Below are positions 32,836-40,572 of a DNA stretch of 40,623 nt, piece by piece (the stretch's first letter is position 1; the number at the start of each line of letters is the position of its first letter). The notes beneath the pieces were generated by a model. The model saw only the letters and a list, made by a program, of their open reading frames with translations, was not told the DNA's origin and ran no database searches. The stretch comes from Prolixibacteraceae bacterium (lineage in GTDB: Bacteria > Bacteroidota > Bacteroidia > Bacteroidales > Prolixibacteraceae). The translations under genes and the position numbers were made by a program. Where the stretch lies: contig JAQIBQ010000518.1 in NCBI GenBank assembly GCA_027859005.1, forward strand, positions 1 to 40,623. The letters run 5' to 3'.

Positions 32836-32857
32836 TTTTCAGGCAAAGCAAAGATAG

Positions 32858-32890
32858 AAAGATCTTCATTAACCGAAGATCTTTTTTTTT
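32858..32890 (+). terminator. Intrinsic terminator after the NtrC-like gene
   Basis: AAAGATCTTC and GAAGATCTTT form a 10-bp perfect stem with a 7-nt loop, followed by a T-run. Confidence 0.88.
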
Positions 32891-32992: not shown

Positions 32993-35257
32993 ATGAAGAA
33001 AAATCTAACTGCCGTTTTGCTATTGTTAGCATTTACATCAATTATTGTTTTTTCAATTTTTAAACCCGTGATTCAACATCCCAATAGTTACCTCTTTTCA
33101 CATGGGGGCGATGCGGTTAAAAGCTATTATAATTTCTCCTATAATTTAAAATATGGTGAAGGAATCAAGCACAAGGGAATTAATTATCCTTATGGCGAAC
33201 ATTTGCAATACATCAATTCTCATCCTTTTCATACTGCCGTTTTAAAACCAATCAGCAAAATTTTACCCATTTCGAATTATGGCGTTGCTATTTTAAATCT
33301 TTCGATGATTTTGTCTCTTATTGCTGCTGTTCCTTTTTTGTTCCTTATTCTAAGGAAATACAATTTACCCATTTGGTATTCATTTATTGTTGCATTAATC
33401 ATACTCTTTCTTTCACCCCAACTAGATCGAATCAAGGGGCATTTTGAAATGGTGTACCTGTTTTTCATTCCCATGTTTTGGTATTTACTAATTCAATTTC
33501 GAGAAGGAAAAAGGCCATGGCTTTGGGGTATTCTACTCGTTCTTTCTGGTTTAATTGGTGGATTTACAAGTGCTTACTTTGTTGCGTTTTATGCCATCTT
33601 ATTAATTTCGGTTGTAATGGCTGATGGTTGGAAGAATAGAAAAAATTTAAAAAATTATTTAAAGCCTGGACTAACATTATTGTTTATGGCAGTTTTACCT
33701 TTGCTTGTTGTAAAGGGCTTAGTCTCTATAACCGATTGGGCTACTGATAGACCCTATAATCCTTGGGGCTTTTATGTTTTTCATGCCAATCCTTTTAGCG
33801 TTTTTCTACCCCCAAATGAAGCACTACGAGAAATTTTAAGCAAATGGTTTAGCATAAGGTATCGGTGGGAAGGACGATCGTACGTTGGAGCTCCGGCTAC
33901 TATGTTGGCACTTTCATTGGTATTGTCTTTTGTATATCGAATCGTTAAAAGAAAGAAATCGATCTCATTTGTTACCAATCCTCAATTGAATACTTTTATG
34001 TTTGGAGCTACATTAATTCTCTTATTCTCAATGTGTTTCCCATTTAAATGGGGTTTTGGATTTTTACTTGAATTATTGCCGCCGGTAAAACAATTTAGAG
34101 CTTTAGGTCGTTTTGCGTGGATATTCTACTATGTGTTTACGGTATATGCGGCCTACTATTTCTATCAGTTATTTTTGAAATTGAAAGAAAAGGGAATGGA
34201 GAAATTTTCGATGATGTTTCTTTTATTGATACTAGGTTTTTGGTCGGTTGATGCAGCAGTGAATGCCAAAAAAAGCTTCAATGGAATTTTTCTTCAAAAT
34301 GAAACCCTTAAAACGTCAAGCATTTCATACCAACATATGTTCCAAGAGGCGCAAATTGAGCCTGACGAATTTCAAGCCATTTTCTTTTTGCCATTTGCTA
34401 ATACCTCAGGCGATAAATTGCTATTTGAACAGGGGTTGAAAAAAGCTTTTGGCGAAGCAATGAAATGCTCGTATCATACAAAATTGCCTTTAATTCAAAG
34501 TTTCTCGCCACGGTTACCATTTTCAAATGCTTTAAGCACCATACAGTTGTTGGCCGACTCTACAATTCGGAAAACTCGTCTCGACGATATGAACGAGAAA
34601 CCCATTTTAATGGTAATTACTGATGAGAGATTAACTAAAAAGGAAAAATGGTTAAAAAATCATTCCGAAGAATTGTTGAACAGGGATGGTGTTACTTTTG
34701 CCAAATTATCACTTGATGTATATCACAATAGTTATAATAATTGGCTTGCTTATACCGATTCTCTTAAATCAACATTACTTGGTACGGAATATCTGAAAGC
34801 CGATGTAGAACTTGCTAAAATATACTCCAAAAACTTTGAAGAGGATGAAGCAGAAAATGTTTTTACGGGCAATGGTGCATTGTTTAAACGAAGACATTCA
34901 GTTGAAATATTCAACGAAGATTTTTCGGCCTTAGGGTATAGTGGTACTTACGAGCTGTCTTTTTGGTTGTTCTTCGACGACAGAATGTACGACATGCCGC
35001 AAGCAAAAATACATATCTATAAATCCAATGGCGATTTTTTTAAAACCATTCGTTTAAATAACCGACATATTCATAACGTATATAATAGTTGGGTGAGGGT
35101 TGAGCAAAAAATAACTATTGAAGAAGGTTTGCGCTATAAACTTGAACTAAATGGTAAATACATAACCATTGATGAATTGCTATTTAGACCAGTAAATAGT
35201 AATGTTTTAACGAGTGATGCGTCGGGTAATCAATTATTTAATAATTTTCCTTTGTAA
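32993..35257 (+). CDS. Large polytopic membrane protein with a C-terminal beta-sandwich-like domain
   Basis: A 754-residue protein. The first 420 residues hold roughly ten hydrophobic helices (from LLLLAFTSIIVFSIF to MMFLLLILGFWSVDA) with the long, interrupted arrangement of GT-C glycosyltransferases or YfhO-type membrane proteins; an early loop has GGDAVKSYYNF. The rest is soluble, and the last 100 residues (YELSFWLFFDDRMYD...WVRVEQKITI..YKLELNGKYITIDELLF) look like a carbohydrate-binding-type jelly roll. No named family is certain. It is followed 12 bp later by an MBOAT gene and then an SGNH-like gene, which suggests that it makes, presents or senses the polymer they modify. Confidence 0.75.
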   Translation: MKKNLTAVLLLLAFTSIIVFSIFKPVIQHPNSYLFSHGGDAVKSYYNFSYNLKYGEGIKHKGINYPYGEHLQYINSHPFHTAVLKPISKILPISNYGVAILNLSMILSLIAAVPFLFLILRKYNLPIWYSFIVALIILFLSPQLDRIKGHFEMVYLFFIPMFWYLLIQFREGKRPWLWGILLVLSGLIGGFTSAYFVAFYAILLISVVMADGWKNRKNLKNYLKPGLTLLFMAVLPLLVVKGLVSITDWATDRPYNPWGFYVFHANPFSVFLPPNEALREILSKWFSIRYRWEGRSYVGAPATMLALSLVLSFVYRIVKRKKSISFVTNPQLNTFMFGATLILLFSMCFPFKWGFGFLLELLPPVKQFRALGRFAWIFYYVFTVYAAYYFYQLFLKLKEKGMEKFSMMFLLLILGFWSVDAAVNAKKSFNGIFLQNETLKTSSISYQHMFQEAQIEPDEFQAIFFLPFANTSGDKLLFEQGLKKAFGEAMKCSYHTKLPLIQSFSPRLPFSNALSTIQLLADSTIRKTRLDDMNEKPILMVITDERLTKKEKWLKNHSEELLNRDGVTFAKLSLDVYHNSYNNWLAYTDSLKSTLLGTEYLKADVELAKIYSKNFEEDEAENVFTGNGALFKRRHSVEIFNEDFSALGYSGTYELSFWLFFDDRMYDMPQAKIHIYKSNGDFFKTIRLNNRHIHNVYNSWVRVEQKITIEEGLRYKLELNGKYITIDELLFRPVNSNVLTSDASGNQLFNNFPL

Positions 35258-35269
35258 GGGGTAACGTTT

Positions 35270-36682
35270 ATGCTTTTTAATTCACTTCAGTTCATTTATT
35301 TTCTGCCCATTGTTATCATTGGATACTTCTTGCTTCCGCATAAATTCCGTTGGATATTGTTGTTGCTTGCCAGTTACTATTTTTACATGTGTTGGCGTGC
35401 CGATTATATTATATTGATAGTTGTTTCAACATTAATCGATTTTTTTGCTGCTCGAAGAATGGGACAGCATACAGAGCGGAAACGACGGAAAAAATATTTG
35501 ATACTCAGTTTGTTTACCAACCTTGGTTTGTTGGGGACTTTTAAATATTTTAACTTTTTCACCGAGAATATAAATCAGCTATTTGAGTATTTTAATGTGG
35601 CCTCGCAAATTCCGGCACTAAATTTATTATTACCAGTTGGAATTTCGTTTTATACCTTTCAAACATTGAGCTACTCAATTGATGTATACTATGGTAAAAT
35701 AAAACCCGAAACACACTTGGGCCATTTTGCCCTTTATGTATCCTTTTTCCCCCAATTGGTTGCGGGACCCATTGAACGTTTCGATCGTTTGTCGCCTCAA
35801 TTGAAAGCGAAGCACAATTTCAGTTATGAAAATCTTGCCAACGGATTACGTTTAATCTTGTATGGATTATTCATCAAAATGGTTATTGCCGATAATCTTT
35901 CGGTGTATGTCGATCAAATTTATAAAGCCCCCGAGGCCTTTAGTTCATGGGGGTTGCTTACTGGAGTCTCATTGTATTCATTTCAAATTTATAGCGACTT
36001 TTATGGTTATTCTACCATTGCAATAGGAAGCGCACTTATAATGGGTATTCGAATAATGGACAATTTCAAAACTCCGTATTTGGCTCGAAGTGTGAGTGAA
36101 TTCTGGGAACGATGGCATATTTCTCTTTCAACCTGGTTCCGTAGTTATTTGTATTTCCCGTTAGGCGGAAACCGTGTTAAAAAGTACCGTTGGATGATCA
36201 ATATTTTTATTGTATTTGCGGTAAGTGGTTTATGGCACGGTGCCAATTGGACTTTCATTATTTGGGGGGCTATGTGGGGGATTCTTTATTTAGTTGAGAA
36301 CCAGCTAAACAAGCTGTTCAAATTTCAAAAAATTGCCAAAGAGTGGTCGCTACGTCATTTTATTATGGCAACCAAAATATTTGTGATTTCAACTGTTGCT
36401 TGGATATTTTTCCGAAGTCAAAGTTTTTCTGAAGCCATGACCATTTTGAAAAACATTGTAACAAATACAAACGTTGAAAAGCAGTTGAATGTAGAACCCC
36501 GTATACTTTTATTACTGGGCTTATTTATCTTTTCCGATATTTTTCTATTTAATAATCGTTTCGACAAGTGGAGTGCAAAACAAAATGTTGTTTTACGATG
36601 GGTGATTTACGCTTTTCTCTTGTTTTCGATTATTGTGTTTTCGGGTGTTGAAGATTTTCCGTTTATCTATTTTCAGTTTTAA
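35270..36682 (+). CDS. MBOAT-family membrane O-acyltransferase (AlgI/DltB-like)
   Basis: A 470-residue polytopic membrane enzyme. The N-terminus MLFNSLQFIYFLPIVIIGYFLLPHKFRWILLLLASYYFY and the motifs LPVGISFYTFQTLSYSIDVYYGK, QLVAGPIERF, EFWERWHISLSTWFRSYLYFPLGGNR and SGLWHGANWTFIIWG (conserved His about 322) define the AlgI branch of MBOATs. It passes an acyl group (commonly acetyl) across the membrane for attachment to an extracytoplasmic polymer by a partner protein. The likely partner is the SGNH-like protein encoded next. It starts 12 bp after the previous stop, so the two are cotranscribed. Confidence 0.95.
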   Translation: MLFNSLQFIYFLPIVIIGYFLLPHKFRWILLLLASYYFYMCWRADYIILIVVSTLIDFFAARRMGQHTERKRRKKYLILSLFTNLGLLGTFKYFNFFTENINQLFEYFNVASQIPALNLLLPVGISFYTFQTLSYSIDVYYGKIKPETHLGHFALYVSFFPQLVAGPIERFDRLSPQLKAKHNFSYENLANGLRLILYGLFIKMVIADNLSVYVDQIYKAPEAFSSWGLLTGVSLYSFQIYSDFYGYSTIAIGSALIMGIRIMDNFKTPYLARSVSEFWERWHISLSTWFRSYLYFPLGGNRVKKYRWMINIFIVFAVSGLWHGANWTFIIWGAMWGILYLVENQLNKLFKFQKIAKEWSLRHFIMATKIFVISTVAWIFFRSQSFSEAMTILKNIVTNTNVEKQLNVEPRILLLLGLFIFSDIFLFNNRFDKWSAKQNVVLRWVIYAFLLFSIIVFSGVEDFPFIYFQF

Positions 36683-36789
36683 AGAATGAAACGAACATGA
36701 TTTTTTTTATCTTAAAATAGACACACAAAAATGATTAAAACTCATCGGGATTTCCATGAGTTACCATAAAAAATAAATAATTTAAACGA

Positions 36790-38289
36790 GTGAATAATTT
36801 TAAAAAAATAGGAATAAGAATAGTTGTTGTAATCACTTTATTAGTCGGTTTCAATTTCATTTATCAATACCTGTTTTATGAAAATGATGTAAAAAAGGAA
36901 GCATCGATAATTGAAATTTTACCTGAACCGAGTGATAGTGCTCAGATCCTTTATTTTGCTGAATCGTCGAACTTTACTTCCCATAAATTCGATGTCGATA
37001 AGCGAAGCATCAGTGAAATTATTGCTGCTTATTATCCTGCCAAAAAGCTGATTGATGTTGACAAAGGGGCCTTACACAGTGGGATTTACAAGGTTCTGTT
37101 AGGAAATATTCCTGAAGAAAATCAGATTGAAACCATAATTGTGACTTTGAATTTACGATCGTTTGGTGCCGATTGGATTTATTCGAAATTGGAAACATCG
37201 CTACAAAAAAGTATTGTACTTATTCAACCCAATTTGCCTTTGTTAAACCGCATTCAGTTATCCTTCAAAGGCTACGATGTAAAGACCAATAAGGAAAGGC
37301 ATGAACAAGTTATAAGGCATTGGAAAAGGGATAAATTGAACTTTCCTTATGACTTTAAATACACGAATGCCCTCGATTGGGAAAAAGGAAAAAACAACGA
37401 GGGCTTTTGGTTCGATAATGGAGATAAAGATTACGCTAAAACGGCATTGGCTTGTCATTACATTAAATCGTATGGATTTTCGATTGATGAAAACAAGAAT
37501 CCTCGAATTAAAGATTTTGATGATATCGTAGCTTATTGTCAAGCCAGGAAGTGGAATGTTGTTTTTAACTTAATGGCTGAAAATACTGAAAAAGCAAACG
37601 AGCTAGTTGGTTCTGATTTGATATTCTTAATGAGACGGAATCGCGACTTCCTGGTTGATCGGTATTCAAAAAAAGGAGTTATAGTTGTCGATAATTTAGA
37701 AGATGTAGCTACACAGTATTACATCGATCAGAATTGGACTACAGAACATTATACCGAAGAAGGTCGATTGAAAATTGCAGCTACAGTTGCCGATAGCCTT
37801 AAGCTTCTTTATGCAAATGAATACCAACAGATTTCTGAGCCTGAAATAATTCAAGCTAGTTATTTTACAAATTCATGTGAGAATAATACGACTTGGCAAA
37901 ATATAAATACATTATCGAATGAGCAGGCTTTTGATGGCATGTACTCAAGTAAAATAAATATGGACCAACCATACAGTATTACATTTGAGAGAGCACTGAA
38001 GTTTATTCCCGATTCAACAAAGAATAAAGTACTGGTTAATTTCAAGGCACTACGTACAATTGAGCATTCAGCAGTTAAAGTTGTTCTTGAGTTGCAAGGC
38101 GATTATGTTCAGCCTAAATGGTTGGTTCAGAATTTAAATGAGTCAGAACCCAATTGTTGGGTAGAGCATGTCTATCAATTCGATTTAACAGAAACAGATC
38201 TTCGCTCGTATAACCTGATTAAGATTTATTGTTCTAATAAATTAGAAGCATCGACCTTTATTGATAGTTGGGAACTCATTTTTGAATAA
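36790..38289 (+). CDS. Membrane-anchored SGNH/DltD-like partner of the MBOAT protein
   Basis: A 499-residue protein with one N-terminal membrane helix (residues 8-28) and a periplasmic body. The start must be GTG 36790, since the frame is closed 10 bp upstream by TAA and there is no ATG. Block I ILYFAESSNFTSH (about 53-65) puts Ser59/60 at the SGNH nucleophile position, and TTEHYTEEGRLKIAA (about 316-330) supplies the late histidine. The layout matches DltD/AlgJ-like proteins that complete MBOAT acyl transfer. The last 140 residues look like another beta-sandwich (NKVLVNFKALRT..VKVVLELQGDY..SWELIFE). Assignment rests on context plus weak motifs; substrate and acyl group are unknown. Confidence 0.7.
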   Translation: MNNFKKIGIRIVVVITLLVGFNFIYQYLFYENDVKKEASIIEILPEPSDSAQILYFAESSNFTSHKFDVDKRSISEIIAAYYPAKKLIDVDKGALHSGIYKVLLGNIPEENQIETIIVTLNLRSFGADWIYSKLETSLQKSIVLIQPNLPLLNRIQLSFKGYDVKTNKERHEQVIRHWKRDKLNFPYDFKYTNALDWEKGKNNEGFWFDNGDKDYAKTALACHYIKSYGFSIDENKNPRIKDFDDIVAYCQARKWNVVFNLMAENTEKANELVGSDLIFLMRRNRDFLVDRYSKKGVIVVDNLEDVATQYYIDQNWTTEHYTEEGRLKIAATVADSLKLLYANEYQQISEPEIIQASYFTNSCENNTTWQNINTLSNEQAFDGMYSSKINMDQPYSITFERALKFIPDSTKNKVLVNFKALRTIEHSAVKVVLELQGDYVQPKWLVQNLNESEPNCWVEHVYQFDLTETDLRSYNLIKIYCSNKLEASTFIDSWELIFE

Positions 38290-38349: not shown

Positions 38350-40572
38350 ATGTCGCATTCTATTCGAAATCCTAACGCAAAATTTGGCACATTGCCAGTA
38401 TTCCTTACTGCATTATCCACCATTTTAGGCGCAGTACTGTTTTTACGGTTTGGTTGGGCTGTTGGTCAAGTTGGCTTTTGGGGAGTTATTGGAATTGTCC
38501 TCCTTGGTCATCTTGTAACTATTCCAACAGCAATGGCAGTTGCTGAAATTGCCACTAATCAGAAAGTACAAGGTGGTGGAGCTTATTTCATTGTGTCTCG
38601 TTCGTTTGGTTTAAATATAGGTGCCGCAATAGGAATTGCGTTGTATTTTGCCCAAGCAATAAGTGTTGCGTTCTACATAATTGCTTTTGGAGAAGCATTT
38701 GAACCTGTTGTGCGGTGGTTGTCTGAAAACACTTTTTTAAATTACTTCGATCGAAGGTTTATTACCTTGCCAGTTATGGCCGCCTTAACGGTTTTAATGC
38801 TAACACGTGGTGCTAATGTTGGGATGAAAGCTTTGTATTGGGTTGTTGCAATTTTACTTACATCGTTGGCTCTTTTCTTCGCTGGTAAATCTGAAATTGC
38901 TCCCGAAAGTATTAGCTTTACCACTCGTATTCTTGAAAATGAAAATTTCTTCTACGTTTTTGCTATTGTATTTCCTGCTTTTACTGGATTAGCTGCTGGT
39001 CTTGGCCTTTCTGGTGATTTAAAGCATCCTGAAAAATCTATTCCAAAAGGAACCATTTGGGCAACTATTGTTGGATTAGTGGTCTATATTTTTTTAGCCT
39101 ACAAATTCACCATTTCAGCTACTCCAGATGAATTGGTAAACGATCAGTTCGTAATGAGTAAGATTGCTGTTTGGGGGCCAATAATTCCAATTGGTTTAGC
39201 AGCAGCATCAATCTCTTCGGCTTTGGGATCAATTATAATTGCACCGCGTACTTTACAAGCCATTGGTGCCGATGATATTTTTCCAAATGAAAAACTTAAT
39301 TTATGGTTTTCCAAAGGTCGATTACATGATAATGAACCTATAAATGCTTCAATTATTACAGTGATAATTGCTTTTGCTTTTGTGGCAATAGGCGATGTGA
39401 ATTTTGTGGCCGAAATCATATCCATGTTTTTCATGATTACTTATGGTGCTATATGTTTAATCTCATTATTGGAGCATTTTGCTGCCGATCCGGCCTATCG
39501 ACCAACCTTTCATTCAAAATGGATCATTTCATTGATTGGTACTATTTCGTCGTTTTGGTTAATGTTGAAAATGAACCTTCCGTATGCTGTTTTGGCACTC
39601 TTTTTAATGGGAATAATTTATTATTTCATTACCAATAAGAAAAAAGAAAAAACGGGGTTAAATAAACTATTCCGCGGAGTAATATTTCAATTGAGTAGGG
39701 AGCTGCAAATCTTTGCACAACGAGCCGATCGTGAAGACCGCGAAATTAGTTGGCGACCATTTGCAATTTGTATCTCTGAAGATACATTTAAACGTCGATC
39801 GGCATTTGACATTATGCGTTGGCTCTCGCATCGATATGGTTTTGGAACTTATATTCATTTTATAAAAGGACGTTTGAATAAGATCACTAGCGATGAGTCT
39901 AAGCATAGCTTAGATCGATTGCTTAAGCTCGCCAAAGGAAACAAAAGTCGTGTTTATCTCGATACCATTATTTCACCTTCCTATACATCAGCAATAGCCC
40001 AGGTAGTGCAATTACAAGGTTTTTCAGGAAGAGGAAACAACCTCATTCTTTTTGAATTTTCACGTTCGAAGCCCGATGCATTAGAAGATGTGCTTCAAAA
40101 TTACAACATGCTGGGTTCATCGGGTTTTGATATCTGTATCTTGAATACAAGCCAAAAAGGATTCGGATATCATAACGAAATTCATATTTGGATAAAACCC
40201 GACGATTATCGAAATGCAAACTTGATGATATTGTTGGCTTTTATTTTAATTGGTCATCCCGATTGGAAAAGAGGATCAATTAAGATTTTCTCTCTTACTC
40301 CGTTAAGCGAAAGGGAAAAACGATATGAAAAAATTACATCACTTATTAAAGAAGGACGAATTCCAATTAGTTCAACAAATGTTGAAATGATACCTTTTGA
40401 TCCTACCCAAGATCGTAATGAAGTGATTGGCTTAAAGTCGTTAGATGCTGACCTCACGTTGATAGGCTTTAACGCAAATACAATTCAAAAAGGGATTGAT
40501 GAATTTGTTGGGTACAAAGATTTTGGAAATATTCTGTTTGTATCTGCCAATAAAGCCAAAGTCATAAAATAA
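38350..40572 (+). CDS. SLC12-like cation/chloride cotransporter (APC superfamily)
   Basis: A 740-residue inner-membrane transporter. The N-terminal 440 residues contain about twelve hydrophobic helices; the first, TLPVFLTALSTILGAVLFLRFGWAVGQVG, is the hallmark of SLC12 (Na-K-Cl/K-Cl) transporters, and QGGGAYFIVSRSFG and AGLSGDLKHPEKSIPKGT follow. The C-terminal 290 residues are cytoplasmic and resemble the SLC12 C-terminal regulatory domain in position and size. Bacterial members are thought to move K+ or amino acids with Cl-; the substrate here is not determinable. A lone gene, start ATG 38350. The last 50 bp of the window after it contain a 14-bp palindrome but no gene. Confidence 0.9.
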   Translation: MSHSIRNPNAKFGTLPVFLTALSTILGAVLFLRFGWAVGQVGFWGVIGIVLLGHLVTIPTAMAVAEIATNQKVQGGGAYFIVSRSFGLNIGAAIGIALYFAQAISVAFYIIAFGEAFEPVVRWLSENTFLNYFDRRFITLPVMAALTVLMLTRGANVGMKALYWVVAILLTSLALFFAGKSEIAPESISFTTRILENENFFYVFAIVFPAFTGLAAGLGLSGDLKHPEKSIPKGTIWATIVGLVVYIFLAYKFTISATPDELVNDQFVMSKIAVWGPIIPIGLAAASISSALGSIIIAPRTLQAIGADDIFPNEKLNLWFSKGRLHDNEPINASIITVIIAFAFVAIGDVNFVAEIISMFFMITYGAICLISLLEHFAADPAYRPTFHSKWIISLIGTISSFWLMLKMNLPYAVLALFLMGIIYYFITNKKKEKTGLNKLFRGVIFQLSRELQIFAQRADREDREISWRPFAICISEDTFKRRSAFDIMRWLSHRYGFGTYIHFIKGRLNKITSDESKHSLDRLLKLAKGNKSRVYLDTIISPSYTSAIAQVVQLQGFSGRGNNLILFEFSRSKPDALEDVLQNYNMLGSSGFDICILNTSQKGFGYHNEIHIWIKPDDYRNANLMILLAFILIGHPDWKRGSIKIFSLTPLSEREKRYEKITSLIKEGRIPISSTNVEMIPFDPTQDRNEVIGLKSLDADLTLIGFNANTIQKGIDEFVGYKDFGNILFVSANKAKVIK

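Follow-up and report, generated by a model that had tools for sequence, protein, structure and literature searches.

Acyl transfer by a membrane-bound O-acyltransferase (MBOAT) together with an SGNH protein is a mechanism already known from the PatAB and DltBXD systems. In the two-gene PatA/PatB system the MBOAT has a catalytic histidine and a C-terminal FXYXXF motif and its SGNH partner is anchored in the membrane, and in DltB/DltX/DltD the motif is found on DltX; the motif and the function of its tyrosine as an acyl shuttle have been demonstrated experimentally for PatA and DltX (PMC12148441). The joining of a carbohydrate-binding module (CBM) to such enzymes is also known, both for an SGNH protein, in that AlgX of the AlgI/AlgX system ends in a module thought to guide alginate (PMC4148444), and for a polytopic GT-C enzyme, the arabinosyltransferase EmbC, in which a lectin-like module at the C-terminus is what binds the acceptor (PMC3044687). 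Here, a locus is described that combines elements of these systems and lies on a 40,623-nucleotide stretch of DNA from a Prolixibacteraceae bacterium (assembly GCA_027859005.1, contig JAQIBQ010000518.1, positions 1 to 40,623 of the forward strand), the whole of which is termed the window. Its genes A, B and C encode a polytopic membrane protein, an MBOAT and a membrane-anchored SGNH protein, and are followed by a permease gene, D. In our judgement B and C probably form a two-protein O-acyltransferase within a glycan locus, A being a separate GT-C-type glycosyltransferase, with CBM-like tails on A and C that would grip the acceptor. An earlier note on this DNA, made from the sequence alone, had described the trio as a three-gene MBOAT cassette.

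Gene B (35270..36682, + strand) encodes a protein of 470 amino acids that matched the MBOAT family PF03062 (E 6.7e-30), in agreement with its earlier description as an AlgI-type MBOAT, and the DltB-like family TIGR04091 (E 6.6e-46), in this case under the equivalog cut-off. Among solved structures DltB was the closest (E 3e-37). By its sequence, B is an MBOAT O-acyltransferase of the AlgI/DltB/PatA type. The MBOAT catalytic histidine, H323 in WHGANWT (36236..36238, + strand), and the tyrosine Y467 were each invariant in 17 of 17 relatives. Y467 lies within FIYFQF (residues 465-470; 36662..36679, + strand), a C-terminal FXYXXF acyl-shuttle motif that closes nearly every complete B relative in the public loci surveyed below. 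B is in this respect like PatA and unlike the Dlt system, since the motif is fused to the MBOAT and is not on DltX; a further difference is that no Dlt carrier or ligase was found among the window open reading frames (ORFs) tested.

Gene C (36790..38289, + strand) has a GTG start and encodes 499 amino acids. A model built on a 51-sequence alignment reached a predicted local distance difference test (pLDDT) score of 93.3, and comprised a membrane helix, a core of the SGNH alpha/beta/alpha type and a beta-sandwich at the C-terminus. The predicted N-terminal membrane anchor (residues 2-28; 36793..36873, + strand) is a helix in the model and corresponds to a single hydrophobic segment in homologues. 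Within the core, placed by the model and the alignment at residues 53-344 (36946..37821, + strand), the predicted catalytic residues are the nucleophile S59, N121 and R123, D313 or E319, and H320. S59 and H320 were invariant in the alignment and N121 and D313 nearly so; in the model S59 follows strand 53-57, N121 follows strand 115-120 and H320 precedes the last helix. Foldseek placed the DltD structures 3bma, 6pfx and 7dxm among the best PDB matches to the core, which bears out the SGNH/DltD likeness noticed before. However, these matches cover the core only, and C differs from DltD in that a Pfam search at E up to 1 returned no family, including DltD (PF04914); the sequence profile of C gave only weak unrelated matches in the PDB.

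The AlgX and DHHW families have a circularly permuted order of catalytic residues, H-S-G-N in AlgX (PMC9487903), and assignment of C to either was excluded by the position of S59 before H320 and by the absence of a Pfam match. Because the order in C is the canonical S before H, whereas that of AlgX is permuted, C appears to be a combination of SGNH core and CBM independent of AlgX. As the catalytic histidine, the FXYXXF motif, the gene pairing and the SGNH fold with its serine and histidine are all present, B-C is predicted to belong to the MBOAT-SGNH acyltransferases.

The gene neighbourhood was surveyed from both sides. Homologues of A were sought in 140 genomes of the window's family and their neighbourhoods were then fetched, giving 22 other A orthologue loci (40-65% identity), a few of them truncated by contig ends. 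An MBOAT (B-C) was adjacent to A in none of the 22; A directly abutted D in 10, and elsewhere different glyco genes fill the slot. Relatives of C were gathered from order-level genomes and from public genomes. The gene immediately 5' of C encoded an MBOAT in 76 of the 80 public loci, and the four departures from this look like effects of contig ends or of ORF calling. An MBOAT likewise came immediately before C in each of the 20 fetched order-level loci, one of which (L124) has a single MBOAT followed by two tandem copies of C. An A homologue, in each case a distant one, was present in only 2 of the 80 public C loci, and D in none. The window's family yielded one other clear C relative (genome G032), which is paired with an MBOAT and lies near a distant A paralogue. 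Since MBOAT-C pairing occurs without A and A loci occur without B-C, B-C is a two-gene cassette inside a variable locus normally ordered regulator, A (with other glyco genes) and D. The survey thereby ruled out a conserved three-gene cassette: A is not kept next to the MBOAT in relatives, the outcome that the earlier note had itself named beforehand as refuting its proposal. Its broader idea of a dedicated surface-polymer acylation system survives for the acylation pair B-C and is unsupported for the three-gene system.

Two further arrangements were observed in these neighbourhoods. In a Sphingobacteriaceae record two distant paralogues of A lie side by side, close to an MBOAT-SGNH pair (L234:14591-19035), and proteins of 469-470 amino acids were found in two genomes, beside A in one (L037:7786-9195) and beside an MBOAT-SGNH pair in the other (L071:5561-6967); the latter is a methyltransferase and GT2 fusion by Pfam, and the former is similar by reading.

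One alternative interpretation is that A, B and C form a single dedicated acylation complex, in which A would present or flip the glycan and B-C would acylate it while the related tails bind the same chain. The shared strand, the 12-base gap between A and B and a terminator-like hairpin upstream of A would be in keeping with this, as would the homology of the A and C tails and the clustering of tail-bearing genes at A loci described below. The survey, however, speaks the other way, with only distant A homologues at two C loci and B-C missing from every other A orthologue locus, and a single complex is considered quite improbable.

It could also be that B-C, like PatA/PatB, O-acetylates peptidoglycan and stands beside A by accident. 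The motif and the two-protein layout are those of PatAB (PMC12148441), the S-to-H order of C is canonical and B-C is bound to no fixed glycan operon across relatives. C differs from PatB, however, in bearing a C-terminal CBM-like sandwich, whose CBM16/22-like character points to a polysaccharide; B-C sits in a glycan locus, which in relatives is full of glycosyltransferase-type genes; and the genome has two other MBOATs that likewise have FXYXXF ends (FIYFRF and FMYLKF) and could serve peptidoglycan. A peptidoglycan role was judged unlikely.

The tail of C (residues 350-499; 37837..38286, + strand) was assigned as a CBM16/CBM22-like beta-sandwich from the model, Foldseek and profile comparison. 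Foldseek matched it to CBM22 and CBM16 structures (4xup, 9.3e-7; 2zey, 1.5e-6) and the C-tail profile matched the CBM22 structure 4xup (E 2.1e-6); W457 and D492 were its best-conserved positions. The Pfam family CBM_4_9 was weakly matched by single members of the tail-domain set (best 1.6e-4), and the window tails of A and C gave no match to it by themselves. With a confident model and CBM16/22 matches, the beta-rich, carbohydrate-binding type of C-terminus proposed for the third protein was upheld. The tails resemble CBM4/9, CBM16 and CBM22 in their predicted jelly-roll fold and in remote sequence similarity, but they are carried on glycan-building or glycan-modifying membrane enzymes and not on secreted glycoside hydrolases.

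A search with the C-tail profile identified 52 proteins among the fetched loci, a number that is not a frequency because the order-level loci were partly picked for the tail domain. Besides further C proteins, the domain was carried in one, two or three copies by polytopic enzymes (GT22-like in L136, PMT_2-like in L042), by an Acyl_transf_3-sulfatase fusion (L129) and by CotH-kinase/beta-helix proteins, and it also stood alone in proteins with lipobox-like signals. The CBM-like tail domain is mobile; a tree built from 90 C cores showed at least 9 switches of the tail label by well-supported branches. In A-bearing genomes, 12 of 27 tail-domain genes lay within about 5 kilobases of A (hand count; one is C), for which a simple binomial gives about 3e-24, a value that ignores shared ancestry and is hence overstated.

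Individual carriers varied in layout. A polytopic protein of 931 amino acids has three tandem C-terminal CBM-like domains (L143:5876-8668), two copies are found in L135, L141 and L149, and the Acyl_transf_3, sulfatase and CBM-like tail fusion (1211 amino acids; L129:4254-7886) adjoins an MBOAT-SGNH pair. In the CotH-kinase/beta-helix proteins (L037:12678-15653, L153:5480-8551 and L047:12996-15971, assigned by Pfam, by reading and by size and place, respectively) the domain lies near the N-terminus, and those of L037 and L047 are close to gene A. Four CBM-like matches, mostly in short open frames, were clustered in each of L251 and L252 (G599:C11 and G693:C3), from two genomes of the window's class.

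The end of A (residues 611-733; 34823..35191, + strand) was assigned to a jelly-roll/CBM-like domain by hhalign to the C-tail profile, and its best-conserved positions were W658, W700 and D727. The two tail profiles aligned over 117 columns with a probability of 94.7% (E 6.3e-8), which fell to 43.4% with close A orthologues alone. Decoys, which comprised eight column-shuffled profiles, nine stretches from elsewhere in A and the tail in reverse, gave 0.1-0.4% against the C-tail profile, and a stretch of A partly overlapping the tail gave 30.8%. In a plain hidden Markov model search with the A tail, the best non-A proteins bear the C-tail domain. CBM_4_9 was weakly matched in 8 of 32 A tails (best 0.003), and the A-tail profile had no match in the PDB. 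Homology of the A and C tails is well supported by these profile comparisons. A model of A, built on a four-row alignment (A and three relatives), was of low confidence (pLDDT 47); it placed seven strands at residues 637-733, and its best PDB matches were mostly jelly-rolls, many of them CBMs, none being significant (E 0.015 or worse). The A tail likely has a jelly-roll fold. Structure prediction of the two proposed beta-rich ends accordingly returned a confident beta-sandwich for C and strands in a poor model for A, and the case for A gained from the remote homology to the C tail, evidence beyond the original claim.

Alternatively, the tail domains might serve in protein-protein docking or as structural modules, sharing merely the jelly-roll fold with CBMs and binding no sugar. 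Some of the PDB matches use this fold for non-sugar roles, stand-alone copies occur in unrelated gene neighbourhoods, and the conserved tryptophan and aspartate residues may be structural; many of the best matches are nevertheless carbohydrate-binding modules, and the identified carriers are mostly glycan or envelope enzymes. A docking role is possible, if doubtful. With AlgX (PMC4148444) and EmbC (PMC3044687) as precedents we infer that the tails may hold a polymer, as had been suggested earlier.

Gene A (32993..35257, + strand) encodes a polytopic protein of 754 amino acids. The window protein matched no Pfam or NCBIfam family, and among 29 A-family members no curated GT-C family of either database was matched; NF052503 (the VP0952 biofilm family) weakly matched 3 of 29 A relatives (best E 1.4e-4). 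In profile comparison the core of A aligned with a PMT_2-type family over 330 columns with a probability of 78.7%, against 1.9-27% for other GT-C-like families and 0.2-0.5% for controls outside GT-C, MBOAT and permease among them. In GT-C enzymes the first outer loop is expected to carry an acidic residue, and D40 of A, which follows the first helix and lies in this loop, was conserved in at least 90% of the 29 sequences. Against the PDB the profile of A gave only a chance ribosomal match (E 0.09), with no solved GT-C structure detected, and the membrane part of the low-confidence model had no fold match among the matches listed. A is a probable GT-C-type glycosyltransferase of the variable glycan locus. 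Its earlier description as a protein of unknown family holds in Pfam but gives way to a GT-C likeness in profile comparison, and the core profile makes A better read as a glycosyltransferase than as an acylation component. A resembles EmbC in layout, being polytopic with a likely CBM-like domain at its C-terminus; it differs in that its model is of low confidence and in that no similarity to solved GT-C structures could be detected in its sequence.

The preferred interpretation thus remains an acyltransferase pair, B-C, beside a separate glycosyltransferase. Three points weigh against it: 32 of 90 C proteins have no tail, so the tail is dispensable for B-C pairing; stand-alone tail lipoproteins sit amid housekeeping genes, so copies of the domain do not have to recognize a single shared polymer; and A has a poor model and no Pfam family. 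In the proposed mechanism B would take up an acyl group, of which acetyl supplied by acetyl-CoA is the likeliest, via its membrane pore using H323, and load it on Y467 of the C-terminal FIYFQF. The acyl-tyrosine would hand the group to S59 of membrane-anchored C, and the S59/H320 site, with D313 or E319, would move it to a periplasmic glycan kept near the active site by the CBM-like tail. The tail of A probably has the same acceptor-gripping part for A, and A and B-C may act on the same glycan.

In the ORF list all three ORFs are on the + strand, A and B being 12 bases apart and B and C 107 bases apart, adjacent and codirectional as first described, and D (38350-40572) starts 60 bases past C. 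A promoter/terminator scan placed a terminator-like hairpin with a 12-pair stem and T-run (32856..32886, + strand) between an NtrC-type regulator gene and A, and A-B-C probably begin a new transcription unit after it. The GC content at third codon positions was 0.31-0.37 for A-B-C and 0.25-0.29 for neighbouring genes, with no clear foreign signature in base composition. An Rfam search of the whole window gave no match. Elsewhere, a row of GH67 alpha-glucuronidase, short-chain dehydrogenase and D-mannonate dehydratase genes (window:18780-23186) forms a glucuronate/glucuronoxylan use cluster.

The novel elements are an SGNH partner family that matches nothing in Pfam, in which a non-permuted core is joined to a CBM16/22-like tail, and a tail superfamily that C shares with GT-C-like proteins and further envelope proteins around this locus. 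A more far-reaching possibility, to which we give little weight, is that in Bacteroidota the exchangeable CBM-like module is a common adaptor that would direct glycosyltransferases, O-acyltransferases, surface lipoproteins and sulfatase/Acyl_transf_3 fusions to one polymer of the cell surface, a swapped tail setting the target of a modifying enzyme. The analysis identifies a widespread Bacteroidota MBOAT-SGNH pair whose SGNH partner lies outside Pfam families, together with a mobile CBM-like domain that links membrane enzymes of a single locus predicted to build and to modify glycans. This gives a starting point for asking how modifying enzymes in the periplasm select their polymer, so far known from single cases such as AlgX and EmbC.

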